Shown piece by piece: positions 37,367 through 43,080 of a stretch of DNA of 64,000 nucleotides (within the stretch, counting starts at the first letter, position 1; each line of letters starts with the position of its first letter). The stretch covers positions 372,001 through 436,000 of the forward strand of contig NZ_CXOP01000001.1 in assembly GCF_001269345.1 (NCBI RefSeq), written 5' to 3'. The notes under the pieces were generated by a model. That model did not search any database and was not told the origin of the DNA. It worked only from the letters and a program-made list of their open reading frames with translations. A program made the translations under genes and the position numbers. Source of the DNA: Limnohabitans sp. 2KL-27 (GTDB taxonomy: Bacteria > Pseudomonadota > Gammaproteobacteria > Burkholderiales > Burkholderiaceae_C).

Positions 37367-38479
37367 TCAAGCGCAGCAGGCCTCGATCACCTCGCGCACC
37401 ATCGCGTCGGGCGCGCCGCAGACCGTCGCCTTGCCGGGGCCGTCGATCACCACAAACTGGATGTCGCCGCCAATGGCTTTTTTATCGAGGCGCATGTGTT
37501 CGATGTAATGGCCCGCGTTGTCGAGCGCGTCAATGACCGGGCCGCGCACCGGCAGGCCCGCACGCGCGATCAAGGCCCGCACGCGCGCCACAAAAGCGGC
37601 GTCCACCTTGCCCAAGCGCAGGGACAGTTCTGCCGCCATGACCATGCCGCAGCCCACGGCCTCGCCGTGCAGCCAGACGCCAAAGCCCAGGCCCGCCTCG
37701 ATGGCGTGGCCAAAGGTGTGGCCGAAATTCAAGATGGCACGCAGACCCGCCTCACGCTCGTCCTGGCCCACGACCCAGGCCTTGATCTCGCAGCTGCGTT
37801 GCACGGCATGGGCCAGCGCGGCTGGCTCTTGCGCCATGAGCGCATCGATGTTGGCCTCGATCCAGTCCAAAAAGGCCATGTCGGCAATCGGCCCGTATTT
37901 GATGACCTCGGCCAGGCCCGCGCTCAGCTCGCGGGGGGGCAAAGTGGCCAAGGTGTCCAGATCGCAGACCACGCGCACCGGCTGGTAAAACGCACCGATC
38001 ATGTTTTTGCCCAACGGGTGGTTGATGGCGGTTTTGCCGCCCACCGACGAGTCGACCTGCGAGAGCAAGGTGGTCGGCACCTGCACAAAGGGCACGCCGC
38101 GCATGTAACTGGCGGCGGCAAAGCCGGTCATGTCGCCCACCACACCGCCACCCAAGGCAAAAAGCACCGTCTTGCGGTCACAGCCTTGGCCTAGGAGCGC
38201 GTCAAAAATCAGGTTGAGGGTTGGCCAGTCCTTGTGCGCTTCGCCATCGGGCAAGACGACGGTGTGCACCTGTTTGTAATGGGGCGCAATGGCGCTGCGC
38301 AAAGCGGCCTCGTACAGCGGGGCAATCGTGTCGTTGGTCACGATCATGGCCGTTTGCGCCTTGGGCAGACCAGCCCAAGTGCCCGGGTGGCTGAGCAGGC
38401 CCTGGCCAATCTGGATGTTGTAACTGCGGTCGTCCAGAGAAATGGCGACCGTTTGGAGGGGAGATATGGACTCGGACAT
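37367..38479 (-). CDS. aroB: 3-dehydroquinate synthase
   Basis: Second shikimate-pathway enzyme, NAD and zinc dependent. It has 370 residues from ATG 38479. Key motifs: [38 protein letters not shown], the metal residues in EVIKYG and the later [12 protein letters not shown] and [13 protein letters not shown]. It follows aroK by 39 nt, as in many proteobacteria. Confidence 0.97.
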
Positions 38480-38518
38480 AGCCCCCAAGTGTAGGGGCAC
38501 TGGGGGCATCTGAGCGTT

Positions 38519-39186: not shown

Positions 39187-40617
39187 TCAGGGAGGCAGTG
39201 TGGCCGGACCATCGGCCACCACGCGGGGTGTGAGGAAAATCAGCAACTCGCTTTTGCGCCGGCTCTGGTCCCGGTTTTTAAAGAGCCAGCCCAAGCCGGG
39301 CACATCGCCCAGACCCGGGACTTTGGCATCGTCATGGCGGTTGGTTTCTTCGAAAATGCCCCCCAGCACCACGGTGCCGCCATCTTCTACGCGCACCTGG
39401 GTCTTCACATGCTTGGTGTTGATGGCATAACCCGCCGGGGTGATTTGACCCACGCTGTCGCGGTTCACGTCCACATCGAGCACGACCGAACCATCGGGCG
39501 TGATCTGAGGCGTCACCTCCAATTTGAGGTTGGCCTTTCTGAACGAAATCGCGGTCACGCCATTGCCCAGGGCTGTTTGGTAAGGCAACTCGGTGCCCTG
39601 CTCGATCAAGGCCTTGGTCTGGTCGGCTGTCACCACGCGGGGGCGCGACACCACCTTGCCCAACCCTGCGGCCTCCAAAGCCGAAATCTCGACGTTGATG
39701 AAACGGTCGGCCGCCGCGTTGAACAGCGAGACGGCAAACGTGGCCGGGGCGTTGAGGGTTTGGCCCGCAGAGCCGGCAGGCAAGTTGACCTGGTTGCCGG
39801 ACACTGTCCCGGCGGCTTTGGGCTGGTTGCTGGCGCCCACGGCCAGCGTGTTGGAGCGCCCTTGGACCTGCATGGGGATCGCCAGACCGGTGCCCAAGCG
39901 CACCCCGAGCGACTGGCCAAACTGGTCATCGGCTTCCACGATGCGGGCCTCGATCAGGATCTGACGCACCGGCACATCCAGTTGCGCCAGCATTTTTTGA
40001 AGGTCCAGCACCCGAGCGGGCAGATCCGAGATGAACAGCTGGTTGGTGCGGGGTTCAGCCAGCACACTGCCTCGCGCACTCAACCAGCGCCCCCCTGCGC
40101 TGCCGACCGCACCGCCCTGCAGACGCTGGGCCACCTCGGTCGCTCGGGCATATTGCAAACGCAAGGCCAGCATCTGCAGCGGGCTGACAGCCTCCAAAGC
40201 GGCTTGGGCATCGAGCTGCTTTTTTTCGCGCATGGCCCATTCGCCCTGAGGCGCGATCCACATCACACGGCCCTCCTGGCGCGACACCAACCCCTTGGAC
40301 TGCAACACGATGTTCAAAGCCTGCTGCCACGGCACCTCGCTCAAACGCACGCTCACCGGTCCGCGCACGCTGTCGGTGGGCACCAGATTGAGGCCCGAAA
40401 AGTCGGCAAACACCTGCAACACGGCTTGGATGTCGATGTTCTGAAAATTCAGGCTGATCGGTTTGTCTTGGGCAACGGTCACCGGGACTGCCTGGGCTGC
40501 GCTCAGCACAGATTCGCTTGCGGCGCTGTCATGGTGCAGTGCCACCGCCAGCTCCGCACTGCAAGCGCATGCCAGCCACACCACCATGTCGCGTCCGATT
40601 TTTTGGAAATGCTTCAT
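39187..40617 (-). CDS. Short PilQ/HofQ/ComE-type outer-membrane secretin
   Basis: Outer-membrane channel of a type IV pilus or DNA-uptake system, 476 residues with an N-terminal signal region (about 8-26). An STN domain covers about 50-105 (NFQNIDIQAVLQVFADFSGLNL), an N1-like region about 145-215, and the secretin barrel about 240-470 with the hallmark VPGLGDVPGLGWLF. Classical PilQ of related bacteria is around 700 residues with AMIN domains; these are absent here, so the length matches HofQ and ComE. It overlaps the upstream gene by 4 nt. Confidence 0.9.
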   Translation of the reverse strand: MKHFQKIGRDMVVWLACACSAELAVALHHDSAASESVLSAAQAVPVTVAQDKPISLNFQNIDIQAVLQVFADFSGLNLVPTDSVRGPVSVRLSEVPWQQALNIVLQSKGLVSRQEGRVMWIAPQGEWAMREKKQLDAQAALEAVSPLQMLALRLQYARATEVAQRLQGGAVGSAGGRWLSARGSVLAEPRTNQLFISDLPARVLDLQKMLAQLDVPVRQILIEARIVEADDQFGQSLGVRLGTGLAIPMQVQGRSNTLAVGASNQPKAAGTVSGNQVNLPAGSAGQTLNAPATFAVSLFNAAADRFINVEISALEAAGLGKVVSRPRVVTADQTKALIEQGTELPYQTALGNGVTAISFRKANLKLEVTPQITPDGSVVLDVDVNRDSVGQITPAGYAINTKHVKTQVRVEDGGTVVLGGIFEETNRHDDAKVPGLGDVPGLGWLFKNRDQSRRKSELLIFLTPRVVADGPATLPP

Positions 40618-41732
40618 CGTTTTTCACTCCCCATGCTGAGGCCTTCTGTGGCGGGGCTCATCCCCTCAAGTTGGATCACGGGTTCTTGCGCCAAACGCAA
40701 GCTCACGCCGCCCTCGTGGATGGCAACCACCCGATGACCCTCTTGGGTGACACGTTGCCCCCGGCTGACTTTGACCCAATGGGTGCCCGCCGACAGGATG
40801 GCCTGCCGATCGCCGCCTTGTTGCCACAGCCCCACCCAACGCACGCGAGCCAGTGGCCAGTGGCGCGGGTCTGGTGGCAAATCCTTCTGGGCTGCGGCGG
40901 TGTCCGATGGGTCTGTTGCCGCTGCGCCAGTGGCTTGCGCCCCTTCTTGCGCACGGGTGGCCACGCCCGTTGAGGCCCCGCCAGAAGCCGCGTCCGCAGT
41001 GAACAGTGCAGGCCCCGAACGAGGTCGGGCCGCCCCCGGCGAGGGCACCATCCAGGCCGTTTGCAGTGCCTGTTCGCCAGCGCCCTCATCACGCGGGTTA
41101 GCCCCTACCGTGGCTTCGCCTTCGCTCGGACGCATCCAGATGCGCATCACCACATCGATCTGAACTTCTGCCGCTTGGGGCAGTGCCACCACACTGATGC
41201 GGTCCACCGTGCACAACGGCCCTGTCTCGGTGCAGGCCATCCATGCCCTGGTCCAGTCCTCGAAACGACCTTGCACTCGCATGGCTGCAGCCTGATGGGT
41301 CAATTTGAAGCGCGGATCGCCACCCCCGCTGGAGGACTTGGGCCAGGCGGCCAACGCTGTCGCCACGGGGCGCAAAGATTGCAAGCGCAAACCGTGCGTG
41401 GCCAACACCTGCTGCCAATCGGTCCAGATTTGCCCTTGCCGCGTCACGGCCGGCAAACTGGCCAGTCGGCGCTGCAGATCGCTTGCGAGCGCCTGCTGTG
41501 GCGGCTTGACTTCGGCTACCGTCAAAGCGGCCCACTGCTGCGCCAAACGGGCCACCGCTTGTTCAGCCTGCGCATGCTGGTGGCGCACTTCGGGCTGCGC
41601 CGTCAGCAGGAGCAGCAGGCCCAGCAAGCACCCGAACAGGGCAGGCGCCAAACGACGCCACCATCGCGCGGCCAGGCGCTGCAGATGGGGCCAGCGCATG
41701 GCCCCCGACGGCATGCTGAGCCAGGGGTTCAT
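40614..41732 (-). CDS. PilO-PilP fusion protein of the pilus/competence assembly platform
   Basis: A 372-residue protein in the place where two genes (pilO/hofO and pilP/hofP) are expected. The N-terminal part is PilO-like: short cytoplasmic leader, one membrane helix (about 29-45), coiled-coil with Ala/Gln residues (48-80) and a periplasmic region to about 195. A linker of about 90 residues rich in Ala, Gly, Pro and Thr follows. The C-terminus (about 292-356) is a PilP-like beta domain: LARVRWVGLWQQGG, ILSAGTHWVKVSRGQRV, EGHRVVAIHEGGVSL. There is no lipobox, so the PilP domain is anchored by the PilO helix. The frame is continuous and overlaps both neighbours by 4 nt. Confidence 0.82.
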   Translation of the reverse strand: MNPWLSMPSGAMRWPHLQRLAARWWRRLAPALFGCLLGLLLLLTAQPEVRHQHAQAEQAVARLAQQWAALTVAEVKPPQQALASDLQRRLASLPAVTRQGQIWTDWQQVLATHGLRLQSLRPVATALAAWPKSSSGGGDPRFKLTHQAAAMRVQGRFEDWTRAWMACTETGPLCTVDRISVVALPQAAEVQIDVVMRIWMRPSEGEATVGANPRDEGAGEQALQTAWMVPSPGAARPRSGPALFTADAASGGASTGVATRAQEGAQATGAAATDPSDTAAAQKDLPPDPRHWPLARVRWVGLWQQGGDRQAILSAGTHWVKVSRGQRVTQEGHRVVAIHEGGVSLRLAQEPVIQLEGMSPATEGLSMGSEKR

Positions 41733-42310
41733 GGCGGGGCTCCTGTCTCGCGCAAAGGCGGCGCAGGCCACACCCCTTGCGCATGCGGCCAGGGGGCTTG
41801 CCAGACAACGTGCAACTCACCTGCAGGCCCGGCCGTCAGGCTCGTCAAGGTCAAGGGCTGAGGCCACTGCGCAGACAAGCTTTGCCGGACTTCAGACACC
41901 GCGTCGATGCGTTGCACCGTGCCATGCAACTCGATTTTTTCTGCGTCTGACTGCAAACGCTGCAAGCTCAGGCCCCGGTCTTGGGCTTCTTGTTGCAAGC
42001 TCTCGTGCAGGCTCACCCAGACCTGCTGGTGCTCCGCAATCTTTTGGAGTTGACCCGCTTGCTCGGCTTGCCCGCTCAGCCGCATTTGCTCACGTGCGGC
42101 GGCCTGGGCCTGCTGCTGGCGTGCGCGCACCGCTTGCTGCCAACGGGTTTGCTCATGTTGCAGCCGCTGCGTCTCGATCGCCAAGCCATGCTGCCAACCC
42201 CAGGCCAGCAAGGTGCCCACCACCAGCCCGGCCAGGCTGCTCCAGACGCGGTGAAAGACCCTTTGCTGCCGGGCCAAGCCCGGGTGGTTGAGCAAATTCA
42301 GCGAGCGCAT
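41729..42310 (-). CDS. PilN/HofN-like assembly protein
   Basis: 193-residue bitopic inner-membrane protein. The family start is LNLLNHPGLARQQR (here NLLNH rather than INLLP), one membrane helix at about 24-42 and a long coiled-coil (about 45-105, rich in Gln, Glu, Arg, Ala) follow, then a small periplasmic domain. The start ATG shares its A with the TGA of pilM (TGATG), so the two are translationally coupled. Confidence 0.83.
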   Translation of the reverse strand: MRSLNLLNHPGLARQQRVFHRVWSSLAGLVVGTLLAWGWQHGLAIETQRLQHEQTRWQQAVRARQQQAQAAAREQMRLSGQAEQAGQLQKIAEHQQVWVSLHESLQQEAQDRGLSLQRLQSDAEKIELHGTVQRIDAVSEVRQSLSAQWPQPLTLTSLTAGPAGELHVVWQAPWPHAQGVWPAPPLRETGAPP

Positions 42311-43080
42311 CACAACCACGCTTTCAGGGCCAGGCCGGCTGCCACCAAACGAGGACCGCCAGGAGTGGACATCACCTGCCGCACAGCTTCCTCGATGGCG
42401 GCATCGGAGTCGGCCAGCACGCGGTCTTGTGTGGGTTCTGACAACGCAGGCCCTTCGCCCGGGGCATCCAGTCGAAATTGCCAGTCTTGTGGCGCCTGTG
42501 TCATCAAACTGGCCACGCCCCCACGCAAAGCCCGCGCACCCCGGTGCGCGGCCTGCAGTTCGGACTCCACAGCGGCCAGCCGCCACCCTGCTGCGCGGGT
42601 GCAACTTTTGAAGGCCGCCATCCGGGCTTGGGCGCAGCCCATCCAATGCACGCGCTGGACCAAGCCATCGGTCAAAGGTGCGGGTTCAAAATCAAAGTTC
42701 ACTGCATCGGGCTCGAGCTGCAAAGCTTGGGCCACTTCCAGCTGCACCTCGTACCGCCAGTCTTCTTCGGGCAAGTCGGCCGGAAAATCGATGACGCCTT
42801 CTTGAAGGTGCGCCAATGGCAAGGCCAGGTTGAGCCGATGACGCGCCCGACCGCCCGACCGCCCATGCTGGCGCAATTGTTGGCTCAGCCCACTCAGGTC
42901 GCCAGCCTCCAAGTCTGGGGGGGCAGGCAATGCCACCAGGATCTGGACTTTGGCCAGGTGATGGATGGGCCGCGACAAGCCGCCCAGGACCCAGGCACCG
43001 TCACCTTGCGGGGCCAAGCCCCAGGCATGGCGCACCGATCCTTGTGCCCACCGCCGCCACCACCGCGCCAATGCCTGCAT
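42310..43080 (-). CDS. PilM/HofM-like cytoplasmic protein (short, divergent)
   Basis: 256 residues, first gene of the cluster. Actin-like PilM proteins are about 350 residues with clear ATP motifs; here the N-terminal nucleotide-binding sequence is not recognisable and the length equals HofM/ComA. Supporting features are the LPEEDWRYEVQLEVAQALQLEPDAVNFDFEP region, which corresponds to the PilM block that precedes the second half, position directly upstream of pilN, and divergence from mrcA. Identification depends mostly on context. Confidence 0.7.
   Translation of the reverse strand: MQALARWWRRWAQGSVRHAWGLAPQGDGAWVLGGLSRPIHHLAKVQILVALPAPPDLEAGDLSGLSQQLRQHGRSGGRARHRLNLALPLAHLQEGVIDFPADLPEEDWRYEVQLEVAQALQLEPDAVNFDFEPAPLTDGLVQRVHWMGCAQARMAAFKSCTRAAGWRLAAVESELQAAHRGARALRGGVASLMTQAPQDWQFRLDAPGEGPALSEPTQDRVLADSDAAIEEAVRQVMSTPGGPRLVAAGLALKAWL

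Follow-up and report, generated by a model that had tools for sequence, protein, structure and literature searches.

The window, a stretch of 64,000 nucleotides from Limnohabitans sp. 2KL-27 (contig NZ_CXOP01000001.1, positions 372,001 to 436,000), contains a type IVa pilus locus in which a single gene, lying between pilN and pilQ, encodes PilO and PilP as one protein. That its product functions as a fused PilO-PilP in the alignment complex of the type IVa pilus has, in our estimate, a probability of about 0.87. The genes of the locus are given below in window coordinates, with the fusion gene first (aa, amino acids).

40614..41732, (-): pilO-pilP fusion gene, 372 aa, an intact single frame between pilN and pilQ
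42310..43080, (-): pilM, short (256 aa); PilM_2 at 17.1 bits (E 0.0028) against a cut-off of 27, name otherwise from position
41729..42313, (-): pilN, 194 aa; no family match over cut-off, name from position and from an N-terminal LNLL motif
39187..40617, (-): pilQ secretin, short (476 aa); TIGR02515 448 bits
38519..39091, (-): aroK, shikimate kinase match
37367..38509, (-): aroB, 3-dehydroquinate synthase match

The LNLL motif at the N terminus of the 194-aa protein is what we take to be a PilN mark. In the window, a divergent gene for an mrcA-type penicillin-binding protein lies upstream of the pil genes. The ATG of the fusion gene overlaps the pilN stop codon as ATGA, its own stop codon overlaps the pilQ start as ATGA, and the pilN start region overlaps the pilM stop codon (GTGATG). 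The ATG was chosen as the start of the 372-aa fusion because it overlaps the pilN stop; with an alternative GTG start, 13 codons further upstream, the protein would have 385 aa. In the window PilQ the secretin domain is retained, STN and Secretin_N score over cut-off and the N0 model reaches 24.8 bits against a cut-off of 27, while a domain family scan of the 476-aa protein gave no match to AMIN. The genome is a nearly complete assembly of 2.97 megabases.

The fused protein divides into the following parts (pLDDT, predicted local distance difference test).

Residues 14-71, 41520..41693, (-): transmembrane helix with a positively charged N-terminal flank and the start of a periplasmic coiled coil; modelled helices 14-45 and 47-71, putative membrane topology
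Residues 94-202, 41127..41453, (-): PilO ferredoxin-like core
Residues 205-285, 40878..41120, (-): linker rich in Ala, Gly, Ser and Pro, no cysteine; pLDDT below 50 at 217-224 and 233-281
Residues 288-358, 40659..40871, (-): PilP beta domain (GspC HR-like)

The N-terminal half was identified as PilO by profile-profile comparison (E 1.2e-6), and its predicted fold agrees: the protein has the single transmembrane helix, coiled coil and ferredoxin-like core of PilO, and by sequence and model the lone N-terminal helix has enough length to cross the membrane. At the C terminus stands the HR-like beta-sandwich of PilP. An earlier, sequence-only reading of the locus had proposed an uninterrupted 372-residue frame with PilO-like and PilP-like halves and a PilP beta domain at residues 292-356; profile comparison and predicted structure uphold the two halves, and the predicted fold of residues 288-358 matches PilP. 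A structure search with the predicted model also bears on whether the window protein is instead a GspC/GspM-type component of a type II secretion system (T2SS), which we regard as very improbable. The best PilO and PilP chains outscore the best PulM and GspC chains, the locus is pil-aroKB, and the genome's own T2SS locus lies separately.

Homologues of the whole protein were found in isolates and metagenome-assembled genomes (MAGs), among them L. parvus, L. planktonicus, Limnohabitans sp. and MAGs assigned to Comamonadaceae, Burkholderiaceae and Burkholderiales. Local alignments span 91% or more of the query in 74 of the 82 homologues, and 15 share 65-69% identity across its full length. Below, G numbers denote sampled genomes, g numbers genera and L numbers loci. 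A single-sequence search matched 22 of 36 genomes of the window's own genus (its own included) and 0 of 24 genomes of the same order. Six of the 14 own-genus genomes without a match (G001, G006, G012, G020, G031, G035) and the weakly matching G033 were read, and all seven have one long frame from pilN to pilQ; in the six without G033 the C-terminal half is PilP-like (hhalign E = 3.3e-5). The window gene is a genus-wide instance of a kind of PilO-PilP fusion that has already been published.

The 15 homologues at 65-69% identity, drawn from isolates and MAGs alike, also argue that the frame is no read error. Nothing was found at the window gene that would suggest a sequencing or assembly error joining two genes; one match piece in G013 has an in-frame TGA, but the same gene was matched without a stop in the profile survey and reads as one frame of 312 aa. 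Moreover, the PilP lipobox is gone, though loss of a stop codon alone would have left it in place. In all 48 pairs of canonical pilO and pilP genes checked (25 class and 23 family genomes) the two differ in frame, 46 of the pairs with the ATGA-overlap offset, so that a fusion would require a frame-changing indel and a lost stop would be insufficient. We consider the chance of such an error negligible.

Alignment A1 of the fusions contains 37 of 83 proteins and excludes P0081, which has an unrelated N-terminal half. The median identity of these 37 relatives to the window protein is 67% in the PilP domain, 53% in the PilO core and 20% in the linker, which is rich in Ala, Gly, Ser, Leu and Pro. 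None of the 37 has a cysteine in the linker, and the signal peptide and lipobox cysteine of a PilP lipoprotein are absent. Since no lipobox can lie there, the secretin-contacting domain would be held to the membrane only through the PilO helix, as the sequence-only reading had supposed, unless the linker is cut. In the family, canonical PilP is a lipoprotein and has a WM motif (20/20) and a [DE]PF motif (20/20) in its arm; the WM motif occurs in 1 of the 20 fusions examined (G081), and a PF-like motif is kept in some. The canonical set comprises 20 loci, one without a PilO row, and each of its PilO rows consists of the C-terminal 230 residues of an open frame, which in some rows include a few residues ahead of the likely start. 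A further alignment (A2), of one fusion with canonical halves, was discarded since the halves were interleaved. Cys174 of the fusion is kept in 35 of the 37 relatives and, judged by eye, Cys167 in many of these, and the two residues could possibly form a periplasmic disulfide in the PilO core.

The linker raises the question of whether the fusion is a precursor, which a periplasmic protease cuts into PilO and a soluble, unlipidated PilP so that the 1:1 tether is lost. The linker is long (46-118 residues in the 37 relatives) and without predicted structure, which speaks for such processing. No conserved cut site is visible by eye in alignment A1, however, and PilP freed in this way would have no membrane anchor, the arm motif being gone too. 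We think processing of this kind unlikely.

The distribution of the fusion was surveyed in 399 genomes of the GTDB family with profile A3, and a locus was counted as fused when one match spanned nearly the whole profile (E at most 4e-39 in all 16). The fusions behind profile A3 come from the very five genera in which fused loci were counted, and matches weaker than about E 1e-19 are absent from the matches listed, so the fused counts are lower bounds. At least 16 of the 399 genomes are fused, in five genera: 6/6 in the window's own genus, 4/5 in g105 (G438 has no match), 4/4 in g148, 1/5 in g62 (G096) and 1/2 in g47 (G081). The fusion therefore recurs in the family, but it is not family-wide. 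The profile matched 382 of the 399 genomes, fused or separate. Canonical PilP scored over cut-off in 278 of 299 family genomes, but in none of the 4 that belong to the window's own genus. In a class survey with A3, 281 of 369 genomes matched and only the window's own genome spans the profile; this survey showed no fusion of the Pseudomonas putida type, which is either absent from the sample or missed by the profile.

The clearest fusion by sequence is that of G081, a 403-aa protein with Pfam PilO (E = 2.2e-26) and PilP (E = 3.2e-27) both over cut-off. The PilP half is also over the Pfam cut-off in three g105 proteins and in G096; by hhalign it ranges from 3.3e-5 to 6e-24 outside G081 (1.2e-8 in g148). 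The g148 fusion of Comamonadaceae bacterium M7527 is labelled at NCBI merely as "pilus assembly protein PilP". The g54 loci (G088, G294) were dropped as pil loci, being read by eye as T2SS gspL-M-N-D, and G097 and G209, with one match apiece inside open frames of 924 and 1275 aa, were set aside as chance hits. In G150 (g116, L103) and in G085 and G211 (g51, L091 and L092), PilP is separate yet highly divergent and fits the fusion profile better than the canonical one; these divergent proteins are possible intermediate stages.

PilQ sequences were placed in a tree with 24 fused and 20 separate rows, 44 in all. The rows come from 16 loci of the window's own genus, from 11 of the 20 canonical loci, at about half length, and from the other loci read, with G088 and G294 omitted. 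The fused label takes five changes on this tree (4-5 over bootstraps), three of them forced by starred branches, and a single fused clade was rejected (approximately unbiased test, p 3e-13). The clearest pairs of fused and separate loci are G081/G208 in g47 and G096/G219 in g62. These sequence comparisons indicate that the fusion arose more than once in the family. The lineages concerned have a pilus apparatus cut down in other respects too, with few or no PilT/PilU-family ATPases and, in some, a PilM-PilN fusion. The tree gives no direction of change; gains are the simpler reading because most of the family has separate genes.

PilM and PilN are also fused in some of these genomes: in 3 of 3 g105 loci read (L099, L100, L101) and 2 of 3 g148 loci (L053, L102). 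G139 and G242 each have a 411-aa protein in which the Pfam models of PilM and PilN both exceed their cut-offs; in the PilMN protein of G317 and the two of g148 neither model does so, PilN being nearest. The PilM part of the g148 proteins has no Pfam match and is identified by position. The model of the g105 PilMN protein, poor in its C-terminal half, has PilM (5eq6) as its first structure match, with no PilN chain among the 50 matches shown, and the protein has 207 homologues in the protein database. The only alignment-complex genes seen in the doubly fused loci are those for PilMN and PilOP, plus PilQ. By gene content, g105 and two g148 genomes would thus have a two-protein alignment complex.

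Several observations weigh against the fusion reading or its recurrence. For the window protein, the PilP half gave a profile-profile probability of only 23%, and no curated family cut-off of Pfam or NCBIfam was passed. Pfam PF04350 (PilO) gave no match up to E 10, and it reaches E 0.1 in 6 of the 37 relatives (best 0.0048); PF04351 (PilP) gave 13.1 bits against a cut-off of 25.6, and it reaches E 0.1 in 20 of the 37 (best 1.2e-4). Pfam PilP and PilO searches of the whole genome gave 0 matches, though controls gave 0/14 and 2/14, so this result has little weight alone; the PilP model did, however, match in 279 of 299 family genomes. The N-terminal half is weak in the six divergent own-genus genomes (hhalign E = 0.013), and outside G081 the PilO half is weak as well (0.0016 in g105, 0.0036 in g62, 1.2e-4 in g148), so that PilO identity there leans on position. 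Six rows of the PilQ tree, including G081, G182 and G184, were flagged as long branches. Linker cleavage, finally, is compatible with the data.

The rest of the pilus machinery was then considered. The 2KL-27 genome has a pilB-pilC-pilD-coaE-zapD row, in which PilC is a GspF-family protein below each model's cut-off and named by position, and PilD is identified by Peptidase_A24. PilB has 407 aa (L131:6685-7908; C1:358684-359907), in a frame that permits at most 413 aa. It matches positions 171-563 of TIGR02538 with 628 bits, below the cut-off of 676; as the match starts at model position 171, the N-terminal domains are missing. Only two T2SSE ATPases are over the Pfam cut-off, PilB and the GspE of the T2SS. 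No PilT/PilU-family protein was found in this genome at E 1e-80, with all 46 candidates scored in one search. Seven pilin-type leaders are over cut-off, four of them adjoining the T2SS, and ComEC is present. The T2SS locus itself (C1:463-474 kb, L132) contains pseudopilin leaders, gspK, gspL, gspD, gspE and gspF, and its GspL is a classic PilM-PilN-type fusion.

The short PilM, PilQ and PilB and the missing PilT/PilU match could mean that the pilus locus is decaying and that the fusion is a neutral step toward loss; in the family survey, 17 of the 399 genomes are without any fusion-profile match, several of them incomplete. Decay would not be expected to leave the PilP half as the best-conserved segment (67%), a single open frame in the own-genus loci read, and PilB-, PilC- and PilD-type genes, pilin-type leaders and ComEC all in place. 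We judge decay a little less probable even than cleavage of the linker.

The fusion goes with few PilT/PilU-family ATPases in the family survey, which scored five candidates per genome. All 16 fused genomes have 0-1 matches (7 with 0, 9 with 1), against 35 of the 383 other family genomes (29 with 1, 6 with 0); the Fisher value of 5e-16 ignores relatedness, and the five genera are the better unit. In the other own-genus genomes, G034 and G321 have 0 and G013, G384 and G442 have one. Against a simple link stand genomes that have separate genes and 0-1 PilT/PilU matches (such as G208, G219 and, in g51, G085, G211 and G292) and the nine fused genomes that retain one such ATPase. The ATPases may have been lost before the genes fused, or a common cause may lie behind both changes. 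Tentatively, and at rather less than even odds, we suggest that PilMNOP has repeatedly and convergently been condensed in the family to PilM, PilN and PilOP, and in some genomes to PilMN and PilOP, together with loss of PilT/PilU, and that the fusion marks a shift from fast-cycling twitching to a slow or non-retracting pilus, possibly for DNA uptake, in which subunit exchange is no longer needed.

For the working of the fusion, the most probable model is the following. The PilO helix and coil would pair with PilN in the inner membrane, and the helix would substitute for the PilP lipid anchor. The linker would substitute for the N-terminal arm with which PilP, in its canonical form, holds on to PilN-PilO, and the PilP domain, tethered by the linker, would dock on N0 of the short PilQ. 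The available text of one report describes binding of PilNO by the unstructured PilP N terminus in P. aeruginosa (PMC5805733); since the WM arm motif is lost in most fusions examined, it is plausible that the covalent link stands in for the anchor as well as the arm. PilO-PilP and PilP-PilQ contacts are described for M. xanthus by two-hybrid analysis, in the part of the source consulted (PMC3724824). One polypeptide would span from the inner membrane to the secretin. Synthesis of PilO and PilP at 1:1, as the sequence-only reading had it, follows from the single frame; assembly at that ratio would be the expected consequence.

These natural fusions fix PilO:PilP, and PilM:PilN where those are fused, at 1:1 as made. 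They suggest that the PilP lipid anchor and the PilNO-binding arm are dispensable, and structural studies could use them as partners that are already joined. Their association with few PilT/PilU ATPases opens a way to test whether subunit exchange serves retraction.

The earlier supposition that no such fusion had been described does not hold. Korotkov et al. 2011 (PMC3169554), in the accessible part, mention that PilO and PilP are fused in "a few cases", for example P. putida Q88CU9, and remark that this possibly implies a 1:1 ratio. A 2019 superfamily survey (PMC6668835) discusses fissions, and its accessible part contains no PilO-PilP fusion. In the open-access PMC literature we found no account of the Limnohabitans case, repeated origins, double fusions or the link with few PilT/PilU. 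What the present analysis adds is conservation across the genus, convergence, double fusions and a tie to low numbers of retraction-type ATPases.

Compared with known systems, Q88CU9 is alike in joining PilO and PilP in one type IV pilus polypeptide, and the same 1:1 inference has been published for it; it belongs to a different lineage and is likened here by its published description, not by sequence. Canonical type IVa PilO and PilP (P. aeruginosa, N. meningitidis and most of the family) have the same folds, locus order and neighbours, but are two proteins, with PilP a lipoprotein bearing the WM arm. In the T2SS, GspC (PulC/OutC) likewise has a membrane-helix-anchored HR domain that docks on the secretin N0, and GspM has the PilO fold, but GspC and GspM are separate proteins, unlike the window fusion. 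PulL/EpsL is described as a PilM-PilN fusion in the consulted parts of PMC10191384 and PMC6325625, and PilM-PilN is fused in C. difficile according to the part available of PMC6916266. These are natural joinings of alignment-complex partners comparable to the PilMN of g105 and g148; unlike GspL/PulL and the C. difficile protein, g105 and the two g148 genomes join both pairs in one pilus locus.
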